DNA from: Nitrospirota bacterium
GTDB taxonomy: Bacteria; Nitrospirota; Nitrospiria; Nitrospirales; Nitrospiraceae
DNA: 64,000 bases
NCBI GenBank assembly: GCA_026387665.1
Contig: JAPLLG010000008.1
Span: 62,001 to 126,000, forward strand
Direction of reading: 5' to 3'
Numbering within the stretch: position 1 is the stretch's first letter; each line of letters opens with the position of its first letter. The position numbers and the translations under genes are program-made. Positions 26,491 to 34,436 of the stretch are shown here, piece after piece. Below the pieces are notes generated by a model, which saw only the letters and a program-made list of their open reading frames with translations, searched no databases and was not told the origin of the DNA.

Positions 26491-26904
26491 GTGCGTCACG
26501 TAGCTCGGCAAGGTGGGACGGTTCAGGTGTTGGGGTACTGGCTGCCGGTGGGGTTCTATGCCGGAGTCATTTTCTTTTTGTCGTCCCTGTCGCACCTGGA
26601 AGATGAACTGCCGTCGTTTTTGCTTCAAGAAGTCAGCGACAAGATTTTGCACGCGGTGGAGTATGGCATCTTGTCGTTCCTCTGCTACCGAGCGTTTCGC
26701 TGGGCCGCGGGGCCCGCTGCCGCTCGGCATGCAGTCCTGTTGGCGATTGTGACGGCTTCTGTCTATGGCCTCACGGACGAAGTGCATCAAGCCTTCGTGC
26801 CTCTCCGCAACGCGAGCTGGCAGGATTGGCTGGCCGATACGGTTGGCGCGGCGCTTGCCGCGGTGGGCGTCGGTCGAATTGTAAAGACCAGTGCATCGGG
26901 GTGA
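26491..26904 (+). CDS. VanZ-family membrane protein
   Basis: A 137-residue small membrane protein with about four hydrophobic segments. SDKILHAVEYGILSFLCYRA and TDEVHQAFVPLRNASWQDWL followed by ADTVGAALA match the VanZ-like family, whose conserved acidic and His residues face the membrane. Function is generally unknown apart from teicoplanin tolerance by VanZ itself. The GTG at 26491 is the best upstream start. Divergent from the GH57 gene. Confidence 0.82.
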   Translation: MRHVARQGGTVQVLGYWLPVGFYAGVIFFLSSLSHLEDELPSFLLQEVSDKILHAVEYGILSFLCYRAFRWAAGPAAARHAVLLAIVTASVYGLTDEVHQAFVPLRNASWQDWLADTVGAALAAVGVGRIVKTSASG

Positions 26905-27046
26905 AGGTGGGTTCACGGTGAGAAGGGAATGTCCCCTTTTCTCAGTTCTGGTCGTCTCGTCCGGCGACTAGCAGGCTGAGGAAGACTATGTTGGGACGCG
27001 AGGTTTTCGGGAGTTTGCGCGTATGGCGTAACAGGAAGATATTCTT
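26905..27046. other. non-coding stretch before the defence island
   Basis: No gene seen. TGAGAAGGG (26921-26929) can pair with CCCTTTTCTCA (26934-26944) with a bulge; a weak terminator for the VanZ gene is possible. The repeat at 27047 follows. Confidence 0.3.
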
Positions 27047-27176
27047 GCAGGATGATCAAAAAGGCCGTTCAGCAAGGCCGCAGGCGAGTCGAAACCGGAG
27101 GCGTACCCTCAGGGGTACGTTGAGGATTTCGATGAGCCGAGAACGAAGCTGGCGGACTTTTTCAGCATCCTGCTAG
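27047..27176. repeat. about 125-bp palindromic repeat
   Basis: GCAGGATGATCAAAAAGGCC at the left, a central GCGTACCCTCAGGGGTACGT hairpin (27111-27120 is its end) and GACTTTTTCAGCATCCTGCT at the right. Termini are inverted copies of each other. It lies 50 bases before the HNH gene and marks the left edge of the defence island. Confidence 0.85.
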
Positions 27177-27225
27177 ATGATATGGTTGAGTCCTTGGTTG
27201 CTTGGGCCTGTAAGGGAGAACGGTA

Positions 27226-28128
27226 ATGCGCGATACGGAAGATACGAAACGACTCAAGTGGGTTTCAGAGGAACTGCAGAAAGAGCTCTCGCGACGGCTC
27301 GGCAGATTGATCCGTCTCCGGACCACGCTGCCGCTGAAACCGTCTCACACCAACGGGTGGCGTGTGGAGCTGGGATCGTTGGGACAGGGAGAGCCCAGAT
27401 TAGAGATCTGGCACTGCGAATGGGCCGGGAAAAAAGATCAACGGCGAATTTGGTATGGCCTGTATGCCACGCAAGCAGAAAAGCTGCGGAAGAGAGTTGC
27501 CGCATTGCCAGAGTTCCTTCGGCCTGTGCGTCGGTTAAGCGAGAAGGACATGCGGCTCGCGACTGGCTCACGGTCGGACTATCTGCTCAAGAAACCGTTG
27601 GACCCTCGTGAATATGATTGCCCCTTCTATGAGGAATATGAAGAGAGTGGGAACGAGTATGCCTACTACGGGATGTATGATTCCGCCCTTCCAGAGAACG
27701 AGGAACAGGTGCTGGGCATCGTGACTCGCGCAACCAGATTTTTCGAGCAGGTCATCAAGAGCCAGCAGTTCGCGGCACGTTCACAGGAGAAAGAACACGA
27801 GGACGATTACGCGCAGATTGAAAACCGCCAAGTGGTGCAGCAGCACTTGGCCCGCGAACGGAGCCGCACGTTAGCGACGCAATGTCACAGGCGGGACAAT
27901 TATCGGTGCCAGGTCTGTGAAATGACGTTTCGTGAGGTGTATGGGGACGTTGGGAAAGCCTACGCCGAAACGCATCACATCGTCCCCCTCAGCCGCCTGA
28001 CGGACACAGTGGAATCGTCTCTCAATGATCTCGTCACAGTCTGTGCGAATTGCCACCGGATGCTGCACAAACTCGACGGAGGCGAAGAAGACCTGGCGAA
28101 GCTGAGAAGAATGCTGCACCGGCGATAA
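27226..28128 (+). CDS. HNH endonuclease-domain protein
   Basis: A 300-residue protein. The last about 75 residues are an HNH nuclease: CQVCEMTF and CANCHRMLHK supply a structural zinc site, and ETHHIVPLSR is the catalytic His-His motif, as in McrA-like restriction nucleases. The first 200 residues match nothing I recognise and include an acidic, Tyr-rich stretch (EYDCPFYEEYEESGNEYAYY); they may recognise DNA or modified bases. It stands 122 bases before the restriction-modification gene on the same strand, so a defence role is likely. GGGAGAACGG precedes the ATG. Confidence 0.8.
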   Translation: MRDTEDTKRLKWVSEELQKELSRRLGRLIRLRTTLPLKPSHTNGWRVELGSLGQGEPRLEIWHCEWAGKKDQRRIWYGLYATQAEKLRKRVAALPEFLRPVRRLSEKDMRLATGSRSDYLLKKPLDPREYDCPFYEEYEESGNEYAYYGMYDSALPENEEQVLGIVTRATRFFEQVIKSQQFAARSQEKEHEDDYAQIENRQVVQQHLARERSRTLATQCHRRDNYRCQVCEMTFREVYGDVGKAYAETHHIVPLSRLTDTVESSLNDLVTVCANCHRMLHKLDGGEEDLAKLRRMLHRR

Positions 28129-28250
28129 AGACCGGTCTTCACGATCTGCGTCTTACCTTTCACGGTCTCACAAAAGGTGGGGTGATTTCTTGCGGAGAAA
28201 GGGGTATTCTTCGGCGGCATCGAAACTGAAACGAAGAGTGACTGTCGGTT

Positions 28251-31200
28251 ATGAGTCAAGCTCCTCCTATCGTTGCCACCCTCATCGACCGGTTCGAGCA
28301 GAACCGCGAATCCTACAAGAGCCAAGGTTACAACGAAACCCAAGTGCGCCGGGAGTTTCTCGATCCGTTCTTCGAGGCGCTTGGATGGGATGTCGCCAAT
28401 AAGCAGGGCCACGCCGAGGCATACAAAGATGTCATCCATGAGGATGCCATCAAGATTGGCGGCAACACCAAAGCTCCAGACTATTGTTTTCGTATCGGCG
28501 GGGCGCGCAAATTTTTCCTCGAAGCCAAGAAACCCGCCGTTAATGTAAAAGACGAGATCAGCCCTGCCTATCAGCTCCGCCGCTATGCTTGGTCGGCCAA
28601 GCTCCCGTTGTCTATCCTGACAGATTTCGAGGAGTTCGCCGTCTACGATTGCCGGACGCGCCCGAATCCTTCCGATAAACCCAGTACCGGGCGCATTCTC
28701 TATCTCACCTATCGAGACTACCTGGAAAAATGGGACGAGATCGCCTCCATCTTTACAAAGGAGGCGGTGCTCAAAGGCTCCTTCGACAAGTATGCCATCT
28801 CCGATCGCAAGCGTGGGACGACCACCGTCGATGCGGAATTTCTGAAAGAGATCGAATCCTGGAGGGAAGCGCTCGCCAAGAACCTGGCGGTACGCAATCC
28901 CACACTCTCCGTCCACGAGCTGAACTTTTCTGTCCAGCGCACCATCGACCGTCTTATCTTTCTCCGTATCTGTGAAGATAGAGGAATTGAGCCTCCCGAG
29001 CAGCTTAGGCTCATCCTCAACCGCAAGAATATCTACGATCGGCTGCAAGCCGTCTACAAGCAAGCCGATGATCGCTATAACTCTGGCCTCTTTCACTTTC
29101 ATGCTGAAAAGGACCGGGCCGAATCGCCTGACGACCTCACGCCCCGCCTGAAGATCGACGACACGGTCCTCAAAGACATCATCTCGCGTCTCTACTATCC
29201 CCAGAGCCCTTACGCATTCTCTGTCTTCCCCACCGAAATTCTCGGCCAGGTCTACGAGCAGTTTTTGGGCAAGGTCATCCGGCTCACAGCCGGGCATCAA
29301 GCAAAGGTGGAAGAGAAGCCGGAAGTAAAGAAAGCCGGCGGCGTCTATTACACGCCCGCGTATATCGTCGAGTACATCGTGAAGCATACGGTTGGAAGCT
29401 TGTGCGAAGGCAAAACGCCGGCACAGGTTGCCAAGCTGTATATTCTCGATCCCGCTTGCGGGTCAGGGTCGTTTCTACTCGGAGCATATAGCTACCTGCT
29501 GAATTGGCATCAGAAATGGTATGTCGAGCACGGCCCCGAGAAGCATCGGAAAGAACTGTTTAAGGGAATGGATGGGGACTGGCGACTTAAGACAGCCGAA
29601 AAACGGCGGATTCTTCTCAATAACATCTACGGGGTCGACATCGATAGCCAAGCGGTTGAAGTCAGCAAGCTCAGCCTTCTCCTGAAAGTCTTGGAGGGTG
29701 AGAACAAAGAGTCCATGCAGGAATTGTTATTCGGGAGAGTGCGCGCGCTGCCGGATCTCGGCCAGAACATCAAGTGCGGCAACAGCCTGATCGGGCCTGA
29801 CTACTTCGCGGGGCAACTCATGCCGGACGATGAGGAGATGCGTCGCGTGAATCCGTTCGATTGGAAGGCCGAGTTTTCTGAGATCATGAAGGCTGGTGGT
29901 TTCGATGCCGTCATCGGCAATCCGCCCTGGGTCTCTCTCTCTGGGAAGTTCAAGAACGATGTCTTTCCAAAACCCCAAGTCGACTATCTAATAAATCATT
30001 TTCACGGAAACACGTACATGCCAAACATGTATGAGTACTTCGTGTCCCAAGGTCTCAACCTAACACGTGAACGAGGCTTCTTCAGTTTTATCGTTCCTGA
30101 CCGGCTTGGTTTCAACAGTCAGTTCGTTCCTCTGAGAAACAGAATTCTTACCGAATCACGGATCGTGTCTTTGCTGTATAAGGCTCCTTTCTCTGGAGTA
30201 ACTGCGGATACCCTTATTTTTGCTTTACAGAAAGGCAGGCCTGACTCGAACTCAGTTAAAATTTCCGAGTACAACAAGGCTGACATTTTACGACCTCAAC
30301 ACGAATTGCTGAGACAGCCCGCACACACCTTTGAGTACTTCGAGAGCGCAGACATTATGAAGGTTATCGCCGTCCTCGAAGAACCTTCCAGGACTATGCA
30401 CGTCGGAGACCTATGCGACTCGACATCTGGCTTTGGAGGCAAGTCAGCGCTAATCCAGGAAATAAGGACGAACCCGAAGCAAATCCGAACCATGAAAGGT
30501 GACAGTATCGGAAGGTACCAGACAAAAACACTGTATTGGTTCGAGTTCAAACCGCAGAACATTACTGGTCGCACAACAGACACATTGAAACTCGGTGCTA
30601 AACGGAAAGTTCTTCTTCGGAAAACTGGCGATAAGATAATAGCCACGTATGATGATTCTGGAATCTTCCCAGAGCAGTCACTGTACTTTCTCTTTAATCC
30701 ACATACTAAGATCGAGCTGAAATTTATTCTTGGTATCCTCAACTCAAAGCTTCTTGGCGTATACTATCAGGCACGATCCTTAACCAACCGCCGAAGCATT
30801 GCTCAAGTAAAGAAGGTAGACCTAGATCAGCTTCCCATTCCGCGGCTCAACCTGTTAGCTCCAGAACACTCAGCAAAGCATGACAGTATGGTGTCCTTAG
30901 TTGAGTGTATGTTGGACCTGCGCAGGCGGCTGGCCAATACCACACACCCTGACGACAAGACACGTCTCCAACGCCAGATCGACGCCACGGACCGAGAAAT
31001 CGACCGTCTGGTCTATGACCTCTACGGCTTGACGGAAGAGGAGATTAAGATTGTCGAAGCGGCATCGGTTGCATCTTCATTAAAAGTGAAGGAAAATGAC
31101 AGCCATGAATCAGAAACCAAACCAGACGATCGACCTCGCGCAAGCCGAGGTGAGGCTCAAGCAGTGGCGCAGCCAGCACAATACCCCGGCGAAGGTGGCG

Positions 31201-31895
31201 GCGGCACATCGGAAAGTCCTGCTGGAGCGAGTGAGCCAGTCCATGGCGTTCGAGAGTCAGCCGGTCAGTACGGATCGCCTCAAGATCCTGACGGCGATGC
31301 TGAAGGCCAAAGCGAGCTAGGCTCCACTCGCGAATTCGAGACCGCCGAAGGCCGCCTCTCCTATCAAGAGCTCTCTGAACACCTCGCCGTTCCGCTCGTT
31401 GCGATCTACGACGAAATTCTTCAGAGCAGGCCCGAACAGATCATTCTCACTTCTGAATGGCTGTGTGTCCGCCACAAGCGGCTCGCGGGTCATCTGTTCC
31501 CCGATTGGGCAGGCCGGTTCCGTGATGTGAATGTGCAGGTCGGCTCCCACACCCCACCGCCATACTACGAAGTGCCGATCCACATGCGGCAATTCTGCGA
31601 CGATCTGAGCGTACGGCTGTTACATCTTAATCAGGAGTCGGTTGCGAACTGTGCAGAGCTTCTAGCCTGGGCCGACTGGCGCTTCCAATGGATTCATCCG
31701 TTCAAGGATTTTAATGGTCGAATTGGGCGCGTCCTGCTCGCAGCCATGCTCTATAAGCTCGGCCTTCCTCATGTAGAGACCGCACCGCCAGATCCTGAGG
31801 CACGGACTCAATATCTCGGTGCTTTGGGGGCTGCGGATCAAGGAGACCTTACGACACTAGCCGAACTGTGGATTCGACGATTTGTCGAGTTGTGA
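28251..31895 (+). CDS. type IIG restriction-modification enzyme fused to a Fic domain
   Basis: One uninterrupted 1214-residue reading frame. Residues about 75-95 hold a PD-(D/E)xK-type nuclease site (APDYCFRIGG..FFLEAKKP). A gamma-class N6-adenine methyltransferase follows: GGVYYTPAYIVEYIV (motif X), ILDPACGSGSFLLG (motif I, about 400) and IGNPPWVSL (motif IV, about 557). Residues about 570-890 are the target-recognition region, coded by visibly more AT-rich DNA. The usual end of such enzymes, LYGLTEEEIKIVE, is at about 925-937. A 90-residue low-complexity linker follows, then a Fic domain with HPFKDFNGRIGR at 1149-1160. The canonical motif has Gly or Ala where this one has the second Phe. 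The Fic part has no start codon of its own except a GTG at 31164. A separate gene lies in the linker in another frame. Confidence 0.88.
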   Translation: MSQAPPIVATLIDRFEQNRESYKSQGYNETQVRREFLDPFFEALGWDVANKQGHAEAYKDVIHEDAIKIGGNTKAPDYCFRIGGARKFFLEAKKPAVNVKDEISPAYQLRRYAWSAKLPLSILTDFEEFAVYDCRTRPNPSDKPSTGRILYLTYRDYLEKWDEIASIFTKEAVLKGSFDKYAISDRKRGTTTVDAEFLKEIESWREALAKNLAVRNPTLSVHELNFSVQRTIDRLIFLRICEDRGIEPPEQLRLILNRKNIYDRLQAVYKQADDRYNSGLFHFHAEKDRAESPDDLTPRLKIDDTVLKDIISRLYYPQSPYAFSVFPTEILGQVYEQFLGKVIRLTAGHQAKVEEKPEVKKAGGVYYTPAYIVEYIVKHTVGSLCEGKTPAQVAKLYILDPACGSGSFLLGAYSYLLNWHQKWYVEHGPEKHRKELFKGMDGDWRLKTAEKRRILLNNIYGVDIDSQAVEVSKLSLLLKVLEGENKESMQELLFGRVRALPDLGQNIKCGNSLIGPDYFAGQLMPDDEEMRRVNPFDWKAEFSEIMKAGGFDAVIGNPPWVSLSGKFKNDVFPKPQVDYLINHFHGNTYMPNMYEYFVSQGLNLTRERGFFSFIVPDRLGFNSQFVPLRNRILTESRIVSLLYKAPFSGVTADTLIFALQKGRPDSNSVKISEYNKADILRPQHELLRQPAHTFEYFESADIMKVIAVLEEPSRTMHVGDLCDSTSGFGGKSALIQEIRTNPKQIRTMKGDSIGRYQTKTLYWFEFKPQNITGRTTDTLKLGAKRKVLLRKTGDKIIATYDDSGIFPEQSLYFLFNPHTKIELKFILGILNSKLLGVYYQARSLTNRRSIAQVKKVDLDQLPIPRLNLLAPEHSAKHDSMVSLVECMLDLRRRLANTTHPDDKTRLQRQIDATDREIDRLVYDLYGLTEEEIKIVEAASVASSLKVKENDSHESETKPDDRPRASRGEAQAVAQPAQYPGEGGGGTSESPAGASEPVHGVRESAGQYGSPQDPDGDAEGQSELGSTREFETAEGRLSYQELSEHLAVPLVAIYDEILQSRPEQIILTSEWLCVRHKRLAGHLFPDWAGRFRDVNVQVGSHTPPPYYEVPIHMRQFCDDLSVRLLHLNQESVANCAELLAWADWRFQWIHPFKDFNGRIGRVLLAAMLYKLGLPHVETAPPDPEARTQYLGALGAADQGDLTTLAELWIRRFVEL
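31105..31320 (+). CDS. small gene nested out of frame in the RM-Fic linker; possible VbhA/FicA-like antitoxin
   Basis: A 71-residue gene lying wholly inside the coding sequence of the fusion, in the +1 frame. The ATG at 31105 has AAGGA eleven bases upstream; an ATG at 31096 is too close to it. Third-position GC is about 85% by hand count in this frame, against about 44% in the overlapping linker frame, so this frame looks like the evolved one. The product is helical and Lys/Gln/Ala-rich. Its centre, VSQSMAFESQPVSTDRLKIL, resembles class I Fic inhibitors, which use (S/T)xxxE(G/N) to block ATP orientation; here the residue after Glu is Ser. The antitoxin call is inference; the gene itself is well supported. 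Confidence 0.62.
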   Translation: MNQKPNQTIDLAQAEVRLKQWRSQHNTPAKVAAAHRKVLLERVSQSMAFESQPVSTDRLKILTAMLKAKAS

Positions 31896-32018
31896 TAAAA
31901 ATCAAAGGTGAGGTGCCGGGCACTTCTTGGCTTTGTCTTTTTCTGCGAATAGCTCATGGGGAATCTATTGATGAACGGGTGTTAAGCCAAACAGTGCCCC
32001 TCAAGAGCGCTCCTCCTT

Positions 32019-33041
32019 ATGTCTGCCACACACTCAAGATTCCCCAATAGAGTTCTTGTCTTGCCTAATACCAGATACTTTTTCGGGAAAGTACAAGCGC
32101 TGAGCGACTGTTGGAAAGTGATTCGTACATTTGATTGCGATGGGGTGGCTACCGTTTACATAACCTCAATGGGAACTTTTGGGTTCATATTCCCAGATTC
32201 AAGCGATTTGGCATCTATAGACGTTCTGAAATTTCATGGCCAAGGGATTGTGCCGGAAGAGGTAATGGAGGATGCCGACCGCATTCATGATTTGCAGGAA
32301 AAGCGTATGCTGTTTATCAATTTTGTCTCGGCGGCGTTCTTTGGAAGGGTTGCCGCCAAGGCACACACATCTCTCTCGGGCGCTCTCTATAACGGGCAAG
32401 ATAGGATTACGGGCTTTGATATTGTGCAAGGCACAGTTTCCGTCCAATGGACAGAATTGATTAGTCGAGTCATAGAAGAAAAAGTGAATGCTCTCAATAA
32501 TGGGAAGCATCTGAATTATTTCTTGGAGGAGAGCAGCATTGACGATGCCATCTCCTATGTCCGGCATGTTTTAGGGCGACAAAATGATTTTGAATATGCC
32601 GACTTGCAGTCATGTATGGTCATGAACTATCAAGCAGCCATACTTCATAATCAACAGCATGCTGCTGCAAGTTTGGCTCTGAATTTTTCAGTCATAGAGT
32701 CATTGGTGCGGGAAATATTTATGGCTTACGGGCTTGTCGCCAACAGCACAGTTAAGTCGTTCGCCACAAGGCAGCATAATGTTCCTCAAATATCAAAGGG
32801 TGCCTTTGATGATATGAAGGTTAGTGTCGCTGTGAAAGCGTTACATTCTGGCGGGTTGCTCGATGAGTATCTGTATCAGCGTCTTGTCAGCGCCCGTGCG
32901 AAGCGAAATGAGCTTATGCATAAAGGCGCAAGGATAAGCTCCAGAGATTCTGGCGAGTGTCAACCGTTAGTGCGCGATCTTTGGGCGTTTCTCATAGATG
33001 CACCTTTCGAGTTGGTGGCCGGTTGGTCTTACCGTCGCTGA
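32019..33041 (+). CDS. unknown protein with probable C-terminal HEPN domain
   Basis: A 340-residue protein with no signal peptide. I do not recognise the N-terminal two thirds. Near the C-terminus RAKRNELMHKG (about 292-302) carries RNELMH, which fits the Rx4-6H motif of HEPN ribonucleases, preceded by a helical stretch LALNFSVIESLVREIF typical of the first HEPN helices. Codon use and base composition are more AT-rich than the housekeeping genes on either side, pointing to recent transfer. It ends the defence island, so an abortive-infection RNase is plausible. The start is uncertain; no ribosome binding site is visible before the ATG at 32019. Confidence 0.6.
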   Translation: MSATHSRFPNRVLVLPNTRYFFGKVQALSDCWKVIRTFDCDGVATVYITSMGTFGFIFPDSSDLASIDVLKFHGQGIVPEEVMEDADRIHDLQEKRMLFINFVSAAFFGRVAAKAHTSLSGALYNGQDRITGFDIVQGTVSVQWTELISRVIEEKVNALNNGKHLNYFLEESSIDDAISYVRHVLGRQNDFEYADLQSCMVMNYQAAILHNQQHAAASLALNFSVIESLVREIFMAYGLVANSTVKSFATRQHNVPQISKGAFDDMKVSVAVKALHSGGLLDEYLYQRLVSARAKRNELMHKGARISSRDSGECQPLVRDLWAFLIDAPFELVAGWSYRR

Positions 33042-33181
33042 GAAGAAAATTAAATTGAATTATGTTTCTCCAGGAAACCCATGGGGCGCGCAGGGGGTTA
33101 TTGGTTGATGGTGCGCCTCACTCTATTGCAGATTGTCTTGCAGCGTGTATAGTTTCTTAATCTTCTCTTCCCTCTCCCATT

Positions 33182-33279
33182 GGGAGGGGCGTGAGGGTGA
33201 CTCCAATTGCGGCCGTCGAACGAGCACATTCCTATCGTGCGCGTTCCGGGAGCACGGGAGTCGCCCTCACGTCCCTCCC
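33182..33279. repeat. REP-like long palindrome at the right edge of the defence island
   Basis: GGGAGGGGCGTGAGGGTGAC plus TCC (33182-33204) faces its reverse complement at 33257-33279 with two mismatches in 23. GGGAGGG/CCCTCACG-type repeats of this kind occur as REP-like elements in many bacteria. It is just upstream of the amgK promoter. Confidence 0.65.
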
Positions 33280-33294
33280 TTTCCCATCCTGTTC

Positions 33295-33323
33295 GTGACA
33301 ACCTCCCGATATCCCCGTATAAT
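33295..33323 (+). promoter_or_regulatory. sigma-70-type promoter of amgK, predicted leaderless
   Basis: GTGACA (33295-33300), a 17-base spacer and a perfect TATAAT (33318-33323). The expected start is near 33330 and the amgK ATG is at 33333, so the mRNA would have a leader of 0-4 bases. No Shine-Dalgarno sequence is present. Confidence 0.65.
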
Positions 33324-33332
33324 CCGCTATCT

Positions 33333-34436
33333 ATGGCTACCACTGATCCTGTTGCACCGAAACAACCACCGACGTTACCGGACCGCACTCTTGTCGCTGC
33401 CACGGTCGAGGCCCGACTTCCCTTTCCGGGACAATTTAAATCCCTCACGCCCTTGGCTGGCGATGCGTCCAATCGCCGCTATTTCCGTATCGAATTGACC
33501 GGGCCAGATGTTCGCCCTGTGATTCTTATGCAGCTGGCCGAAGCCGAGGCTTTCAAGCAATCGGAAGAGGCTGTGAGCGGGGCAGCCCAGCAAGTCACCG
33601 AACTGCCGTTTTTGAACATCCTCTCCCATTTATCCAAAGCCGGTGTATCCGTGCCGAGCCTCTATCACTACGATCAGGTGGCGGGCCTGCTCTATCTCGA
33701 AGATTTCGGGGACCTCACTCTGTCGGAAGCCTGTCGTGAGGCGAGTGCGGAAGAGCTGGAGGCGCGCTATGCGCAGGCGGTCGATGCGCTCGTGGAGATG
33801 CAAGTGAAGGCCACCTCGCCGGCCGATCCCAACTGTCTGGCATTCCATCGCAGCTTCGATGTGCCGCTCCTCATGTGGGAGTTCGAACACTTCCTGGAAT
33901 ATGGGATCGATGTGCGGCAGGGCGCGCCGATGACCGACGAGGATCGCCGAGACATCCGCGGCGCCTTCGAGAAGGTCGCCAAATTGTTGGCGGGGGAGCC
34001 GCATGTCTTCGTCCACCGGGACTACCATTCACGCAATTTGATGGTGGATGGCGCGAGGTTGGGCGTGATCGACTTTCAGGATGCGCTGATGGGGCCTGCG
34101 ACCTACGATCTGGCGTCGCTGCTGCGCGATGCGTATATCGAACTTGACGAGGCGCTGATCGACCGTCTGATCAACCGTTACCTCGATCAGATGGCGGCGC
34201 ATCGGCAGGTCTGGACCAATCGGGTGGCCTTCCGCCGCCTGTTCGACTTGACAAGTATCCAGCGGAACCTCAAGGCGGCCGGGCGATTCGTCTATATCGA
34301 CCGCGTCAAAGGCAATCCCAAATTCCTCGCCGATATCCCTCGCACGCTGGACTATGTCCGTCGCAATCTCCAGAAGTATCCCGAGCTGGAGCCGCTCCGG
34401 AAGCTTCTCGCCCGCTATGTTCCGGAATTGCAGTAG
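33333..34436 (+). CDS. amgK: N-acetylmuramate/N-acetylglucosamine kinase-like phosphotransferase
   Basis: A 367-residue aminoglycoside-phosphotransferase-fold kinase. The catalytic loop is HRDYHSRNLMVDG and the metal Asp is in LGVIDFQDALMGPATYDLAS; the N-lobe has LAGDASNRRYFRI. The pair with the next gene (MurU-type uridylyltransferase) is the hallmark of AmgK-MurU recycling, in which recovered MurNAc is phosphorylated at C1 and turned into UDP-MurNAc, bypassing de novo synthesis. The ATG at 33333 is chosen because it abuts a promoter and starts the conserved part; the frame is open further upstream through the REP-like palindrome. Confidence 0.85.
   Translation: MATTDPVAPKQPPTLPDRTLVAATVEARLPFPGQFKSLTPLAGDASNRRYFRIELTGPDVRPVILMQLAEAEAFKQSEEAVSGAAQQVTELPFLNILSHLSKAGVSVPSLYHYDQVAGLLYLEDFGDLTLSEACREASAEELEARYAQAVDALVEMQVKATSPADPNCLAFHRSFDVPLLMWEFEHFLEYGIDVRQGAPMTDEDRRDIRGAFEKVAKLLAGEPHVFVHRDYHSRNLMVDGARLGVIDFQDALMGPATYDLASLLRDAYIELDEALIDRLINRYLDQMAAHRQVWTNRVAFRRLFDLTSIQRNLKAAGRFVYIDRVKGNPKFLADIPRTLDYVRRNLQKYPELEPLRKLLARYVPELQ

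Follow-up and report, generated by a model that had tools for sequence, protein, structure and literature searches.

The AT-rich gene at 32019–33041 of the window, by which we mean the whole stretch of 64,000 nucleotides analysed, encodes a protein of 340 residues (P0001) whose C-terminal part is very likely a HEPN domain. The reading that we favour as probable is that P0001 is a self-contained HEPN RNase effector, horizontally acquired as single-gene cargo in a variable defence slot. P0001 is probably a toxin that works alone, in phage defence or under stress, and represents an undescribed family of a familiar general kind; the kind is known because HEPN genes beside restriction-modification (R-M) and Fic/Doc genes have been published (available part of PMC3710099). 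The features of the gene and its surroundings are as follows.

32019–33041 (+): HEPN-type protein gene (P0001), 340 aa; from the ORF list, the translation, the relative on contig L001 and composition
32019–32576 (+): N-terminal ~186 residues, without recognised family and with a low-confidence model; from family searches and the structure model
32577–33008 (+): predicted C-terminal HEPN-type domain, residues 187–330; from models, structural alignment and profiles
32697–32711 (+): E227-x3-R231 in predicted helix 2, the Ex3[KR] HEPN feature; from the sequence, the modelled helix and PMC3710099 (available part)
32904–32921 (+): RNELMH, residues 296–301, the predicted catalytic Rx4H ending helix 3; from the sequence, the domain model, PMC3710099 (available part) and the family alignment
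31889–33216 (+): AT-rich cargo segment flanked by the RM-Fic and AmgK-like genes, with borders where DNA similarity to the sister loci is lost

The gene is real and conserved, its composition is foreign, and the slot that holds it varies between genomes. The open reading frame at 32019–33041 (+) bears out the 340-residue product of the preliminary description, as well as its remark that the composition is unlike that of the chromosome: GC is 46.3% and GC3 47.5%, against a window GC of 58.3% and a GC3 of 60–72% in five neighbouring genes that were measured. Of all 1023-nt windows in the 64 kb, taken in 50-nt steps, the five poorest in GC start at 31801–32051. Upstream of the P0001 ATG, the sequence shows no clear ribosome-binding site, and the promoter scan of 31700–33300 returned one promoter-like site, on the opposite strand, with 1.8 expected.

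The sole confirmed relative in a collection of 84,980 species genomes is P0004, which is encoded on the 4.5-kb contig L001, from a Deltaproteobacteria MAG, and is 66% identical over residues 1–340; its gene has no ATG at the matching start. Among 295 genomes of the window's phylum, P0001 as query matched its own genome only, and the two-sequence profile added a second, weak match (L003, E 0.0019). Among 395 genomes of the phylum of L001, only L001's own genome was matched, and a search of 32 genomes of the genus yielded, besides the own genome, a single distant match (G716, locus L071, E 1.4e-5). Searches of 72,556 plasmid records, 50,697 phage records and, in two scans, viral contigs gave no relative of P0001; since none of these carries a close relative, a defence role for P0001 rests on fold and location. 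Between the window gene and that of L001, pS is 0.58 and pN 0.20, a ratio of 0.34 (0.26 in residues 191–340), so the protein has been under purifying selection. The key residues of the HEPN site (E227, R231, R296, N297 and H301) are identical in L001.

Library searches of P0001 gave no informative match, consistent with the earlier statement that the N-terminal part belongs to no familiar family. The whole protein had 0 Pfam matches even at E 10, NCBIfam gave nothing above cut-off, and PADLOC, PHROGs and PDB sequences returned weak, unrelated matches only; the N-terminal part is therefore unrecognised. As far as sequence comparison can tell, the HEPN family of P0001 is undescribed, being unnamed in the four family libraries used, and it adds to the HEPN families one with a distant branch elsewhere on plasmids.

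The RNELMH that had been noticed near residue 296 occupies residues 296–301 exactly and is one of two R-x4-6-H matches in P0001 (R110-x5-H116 and R296-N-E-L-M-H301). In 20,000 shuffles of P0001, R-x4-6-H occurred in 87% and R[NDH]x3-5H in 23%, and because of the former the motif alone is not above chance. What does exceed chance, judging from the models and the aligned sequences, are where the motif sits in the predicted fold and the fact that 5/5 aligned members conserve it.

The full-length model, built from two sequences, has a mean pLDDT of 42, with ten-residue blocks at 21–38 over residues 1–200 and 55–81 over 221–320; an AF2 model of residues 187–340 alone (2 sequences) reached a pLDDT of 71.3 and a pTM of 0.67. 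Foldseek found no match under E 0.3 for either the full-length or the domain model, and the top match in both runs was 2q00 (probability 0.95–0.96). In VIA-align, HEPN structures filled ranks 1–28 for the domain model (Z 10.2–6.6; first other structure at rank 29, Z 6.3) and ranks 1–27 for the full-length model (Z 10.5–6.7; next row Z 6.4). The top rows comprise HepT, Csm6, sacsin HEPN, AbiV, MtlR/YggD, YutE and similar structures; 2jpu, for example, superposes on the domain model with an rmsd of 3.0 over 117 residues. Because VIA-align values of Z below ~13 may be nothing unusual among helical bundles, the HEPN case rests on the gap and on the uniform identity of the top rows rather than on Z. 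The titles of some top-ranked structures name HEPN, HepT (written HpeT) or AbiV, and the entries 1jog, 1ufb, 1wty, 2q00/2jpu, LinB, YggD, HepS and Csm6 are ones that we take to be HEPN-type structures. In the available part of PMC3710099, 1wwp, 1ylm, 2hsb and MtlR are named as HEPN.

According to the same source, as far as available, a HEPN domain consists of two hairpins of helices, with a variable stretch inserted between helices 2 and 3; Rx4-6H stands at the end of helix 3 or the start of the helix 3–4 loop, its R is followed by a polar residue (mostly N, D or H), and helix 2 contributes an acidic residue, typically within Ex3[KR] (PMC3710099). All four features are present in the domain model of P0001. 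Helices are predicted at 188–210, 215–236, 268–277/283–301 and 314–326, with residues 237–267 forming the insert between helices 2 and 3 (short helices 248–252 and 260–264); R296–H301 closes helix 283–301, N297 follows the R, and E227-SLV-R231 lies within helix 215–236, its E-x3-R being kept in L001. The C-terminal HEPN bundle with R296 and H301 at the catalytic positions, as first proposed, thus finds support in the domain model, VIA-align and PMC3710099 (available part), and structure prediction returned a HEPN-type bundle rather than another fold. The HEPN fold and the placement of the catalytic site are predictions from models; catalytic RNase activity of P0001 is likely.

A distant family shares the motif. 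P0012, a 368-aa protein of L071 in G716, used alone as query, found two plasmid proteins, of Azospirillum argentinense and Vibrio coralliilyticus (2/72,556 plasmid records), and none in phages. The P0012-type proteins, of 368–411 aa, are thus those of G716, A. argentinense plasmid p1 and V. coralliilyticus plasmid p319 ('hypothetical protein'). In hmmsearch, the three-protein P0012 profile scored P0001 at 21.2 bits and P0004 at 33.7 bits, with 0/1000 shuffles of each as high, and hhalign paired the P0001+L001 alignment with that of P0012, Azospirillum and Vibrio at 93.8% (E 1.8e-7) over residues 218–310. The inclusion of P0012 is partly circular because it came from the P0001 profile; the two plasmid proteins were recovered with P0012 alone. 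The catalytic stretch in the five members reads RNELMH, RNNLMH, RNELSH, RNSLHH and RNKLAH, with R-N-x3-H, including the N after R, in 5/5. P0012-type proteins accordingly resemble P0001 in a C-terminal domain with the helix-2 E (kept at a comparable place, the R/K of Ex3[KR] not kept) and RNxLxH, whereas their N-terminal parts show no detectable match.

Collectively, P0001 would consist of two parts, a C-terminal HEPN four-helix domain of ~140 residues and an N-terminal part of ~190 residues. The predicted metal-independent RNase site appears complete, with E227 in helix 2 and with R296, N297 and H301 where helix 3 ends, and the N-terminal ~190 residues probably restrain the RNase or sense a trigger. 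By horizontal transfer, the gene would have entered, as single-gene cargo, a slot of variable content that follows a type IIG RM-Fic gene on its downstream side. P0001 most likely acts alone, arresting growth as an RNase when the cell meets phage infection or stress. RNase activity, N-terminal regulation and an abortive-infection role are all inferred here; on balance, the evidence leans towards a role in phage defence or abortive infection.

The slot is best seen against its surroundings.

26491–26904 (+): VanZ-family gene, upstream border of the insertion site; from profile and domain searches
27226–28128 (+): HNH endonuclease gene of the same island; from a domain scan and sister comparison
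28251–31895 (+): type IIG restriction-modification enzyme reading through into a Fic domain (RM-Fic); from Eco57I/TaqI_C/HSDR_N and Fic domains
31096–31320 (+): 74-aa ORF in the +1 frame inside the RM-Fic linker, Fic antitoxin-like (SMAFES); from the ORF list and frame-wise pN/pS
33297–34436 (+): AmgK-like sugar kinase gene, downstream border, start probably near 33336; from AmgK models below their cut-off

VanZ-family and AmgK-like genes share a contig in 13 of the 31 genomes searched, our own included. In 8/13 the gap between them is near-empty, at ~100–530 bp (G151, G690, G693, G696, G697, G698, G706 and G703, the last counted with a partial VanZ match), and in 5/13 it measures 1.2–6.4 kb (G699, G081, G694, G691 and our own), so we read 26904–33336 of the window, from VanZ to the AmgK-like gene, as an insertion site or hotspot. 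The loci read there carry HNH, RM-Fic, other Fic, PIN, DUF6338 or GGDEF genes. Behind RM-Fic, and always on its strand, the next gene is HEPN in our genome, PIN in G691 (PF01850, E 3.2e-5; after HNH and RM-Fic, in the place of the HEPN gene), DUF6338 in G133 and GGDEF in G704 (two contigs), where an unassigned 261-aa gene accompanies it; in G716, a Fic end at the contig end is followed by a 313-aa ORF without assigned family. The GGDEF protein of G704 (289 aa, L049 1620–2489) has a domain cut short C-terminally and may act as an effector of the signalling-cyclase kind.

At the DNA level, the window resembles its sisters up to 31888, where the RM-Fic gene ends, and again from ~33216; in between, only a 27-nt stretch at 33152 is common to the window and G081. 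Together with the differing next genes, this break indicates that the HEPN gene moves independently of RM-Fic. The preliminary description had placed the gene next to the RM-Fic locus, and the RM-Fic ORF (28251–31895, +) does adjoin it on the same strand; the implied link is looser, as other genes stand there in sister genomes, which makes adjacency weak evidence of joint function. The locus is thus a chromosomal site where single defence-type genes swap behind an RM-Fic gene.

This variability bears on the possibility that RM-Fic keeps the HEPN protein in check as a second line of defence, in the way that PrrI guards PrrC, so that a phage disabling the RM enzyme would release the RNase. The HEPN gene lies directly downstream of RM-Fic on the same strand, and an association of HEPN genes with R-M operons and Fic/Doc-like toxins is published (PMC3710099, available part); however, PIN, DUF6338 or GGDEF genes occupy this place behind other RM-Fic genes, and RM-Fic is absent from the 4.5-kb contig of the only close relative, where a DNA methyltransferase gene (N6_N4_Mtase) lies upstream of the relative's gene. 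We consider such guarding unlikely. A broader proposal treats the whole island as one modular defence unit: an RM enzyme joined to Fic has the Fic antitoxin overprinted in its linker, and the effector in the slot behind it, whether HEPN, PIN, GGDEF or a membrane protein, is exchangeable and fires upon disturbance of the RM-Fic protein or of the antitoxin; this we hold to be quite unlikely. If effector and RM-Fic were coupled, the locus would offer a natural setting for testing whether interchangeable suicide effectors are recruited by RM systems. Among the literature matches listed (title and start of abstract), none describes a type IIG-Fic fusion with HEPN.

Returning to the favoured reading of P0001 as a self-contained RNase effector, we compared it with described HEPN systems. 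PrrC/RloC resemble it as HEPN RNases encoded beside R-M and Fic/Doc genes (PMC3710099, available part). P0001 has no ABC ATPase domain, or indeed any Pfam domain, and a fixed R-M partnership of the PrrC-PrrI kind does not apply, the next gene differing after each of 5 RM-Fic or Fic ends. ApeA, a family suggested at the outset, did not hold up: our genome has no PF18739 match, and hhalign gave none (<0.2% for full alignments, no more than 3.9% with the domain profile of five members). Against profiles built from as many as 12 ApeA-type HEPN domains, P0001 scored no better than shuffles (351–525/1000 as high); P0004 beat all but 3/1000 shuffles with one of three such profiles. ApeA also combines an N-terminal domain with a C-terminal HEPN domain, and its relatives carry RNE[IL]AH, but its N-terminal domain is ~300 aa and mostly beta (from the available part of the source), whereas that of P0001 has ~190 aa modelled at low confidence. 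The VIA-align rows include no ApeA, LA2681 or MAE_28990 structure, which excludes none of these, and P0001 was compared with LA2681 and MAE_28990 by Pfam scan only.

Profile searches against curated HEPN families gave no match for P0001 and sub-threshold ones for P0004 and P0012. P0012 matched DUF4145 (PF13643), named as a HEPN model in the available part of PMC3710099, at E 0.0015 over the motif region, below cut-off. In the same region, P0004 had weak matches to HepT-like Pfam (E 0.046), HepT_toxin (E 0.033), Csx1 (E 0.022) and CARF_HEPN (E 0.030), its best Pfam match being an unrelated family (E 0.027); P0001 matched none of these four nor DUF4145. The Azospirillum and Vibrio plasmid proteins matched no HEPN model, and searching PDB sequences with the profiles yielded nothing useful. 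P0004 also matched phrog_21606 weakly; this was set aside as uninformative, since phrog_21606 gave no match wherever it was looked for, controls included. HepT (PF01934, NF047751) and the HEPN domains of Csm6/Csx1 are among the closest described systems, as best structural matches and weak profile matches of P0004, but P0001 has no MNT antitoxin partner and no CARF domain was found in it.

The presence of MtlR/YggD among the best structural matches raises the alternative that the HEPN fold binds RNA or protein without catalysis, a use published for MtlR. Families of that sort partly lose the motif (PMC3710099, available part), whereas R-N-x3-H is intact in every aligned member here, and a non-catalytic module is in our judgement quite improbable. 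The HepT-like weak matches of the L001 relative likewise bring to mind a HEPN toxin whose antitoxin is an unrecognised neighbour; yet, from 33041 to the AmgK-like gene, no same-strand ORF of at least 60 aa exists except those overlapping that gene's start, and the flanking genes scanned include no nucleotidyltransferase, so that this is very unlikely. A HepT/MntA pair in particular was rejected, the flanks being RM-Fic and the AmgK-like kinase with no adjacent MNT nucleotidyltransferase. That an ordinary helical domain matched the motif by chance, for which its frequency in shuffles and the weak sequence scores could speak, is extremely improbable given that, for both models, HEPN structures lead the ranking and a gap separates them from other structures, and that the motif is conserved in the distant P0012 family.

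Within the RM-Fic gene itself, a linker of low complexity joins the RM part to Fic. In G691, residues 9–993 of the sister protein span nearly the whole type IIG model (11–1004 of 1011), and the Fic part is therefore an extension of the type IIG enzyme. Compared with L029 1734–5567, the N-terminal ~630 residues of the window protein (28251–31895) are 81% alike and the target-recognition part differs; the sequences suggest that RM-Fic sisters exchanged DNA specificity.

The small +1-frame ORF is kept in the window, G691, G133, G704 and G716, and also in G081, there without intact RM and Fic parts alongside; the G081 site (L031 1441–2598) holds a different Fic protein and a remnant of the RM-Fic linker/antitoxin stretch. 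The ORF contains S-M-[AK]-F-E-[SN], as SMAFES in the window and SMxFEN in the sisters. Fic antitoxins, whose coding sequences immediately precede class I Fic genes, inhibit through the motif (S/T)xxxE(G/N) (PMC3667792, available part); this ends in G/N, whereas the window's own copy ends in S. Three pairwise comparisons (window, G133, G704) gave a pN/pS of 0.18–0.25 in the +1 frame against 0.99–1.86 in the RM-Fic frame, and 0.11–0.15 in the Fic part; by these ratios, the small ORF is under purifying selection. No family in Pfam, PADLOC or PHROGs names it, and the literature matches listed (title and start of abstract) hold nothing on nested Fic antitoxins. The RM-Fic frame has 0 internal stops in any of the four copies, and hence either a fusion protein is made across the overprinted antitoxin or the fusion is a by-product.

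Two minor observations concern flanking repeats. An attC-like hairpin lies directly 5' of the relative's gene (L001:2634–2695; DNA fold z -4.8, minus strand), missed by the first and caught by the second of two attC scans, both using home-made rules rather than a published tool. An integron cassette origin of the P0001 relative is possible but was kept as a lead only: this is the single attC-like site on the L001 contig, 31501–33500 of the window has none, and the integrase-like gene in L001's genome is split over two frames on a separate contig. In the window, a 23-nt inverted repeat (91%; 33182–33204 / 33257–33279) precedes the AmgK-like gene, and similar GC-rich stretches stand at that place in sister genomes.
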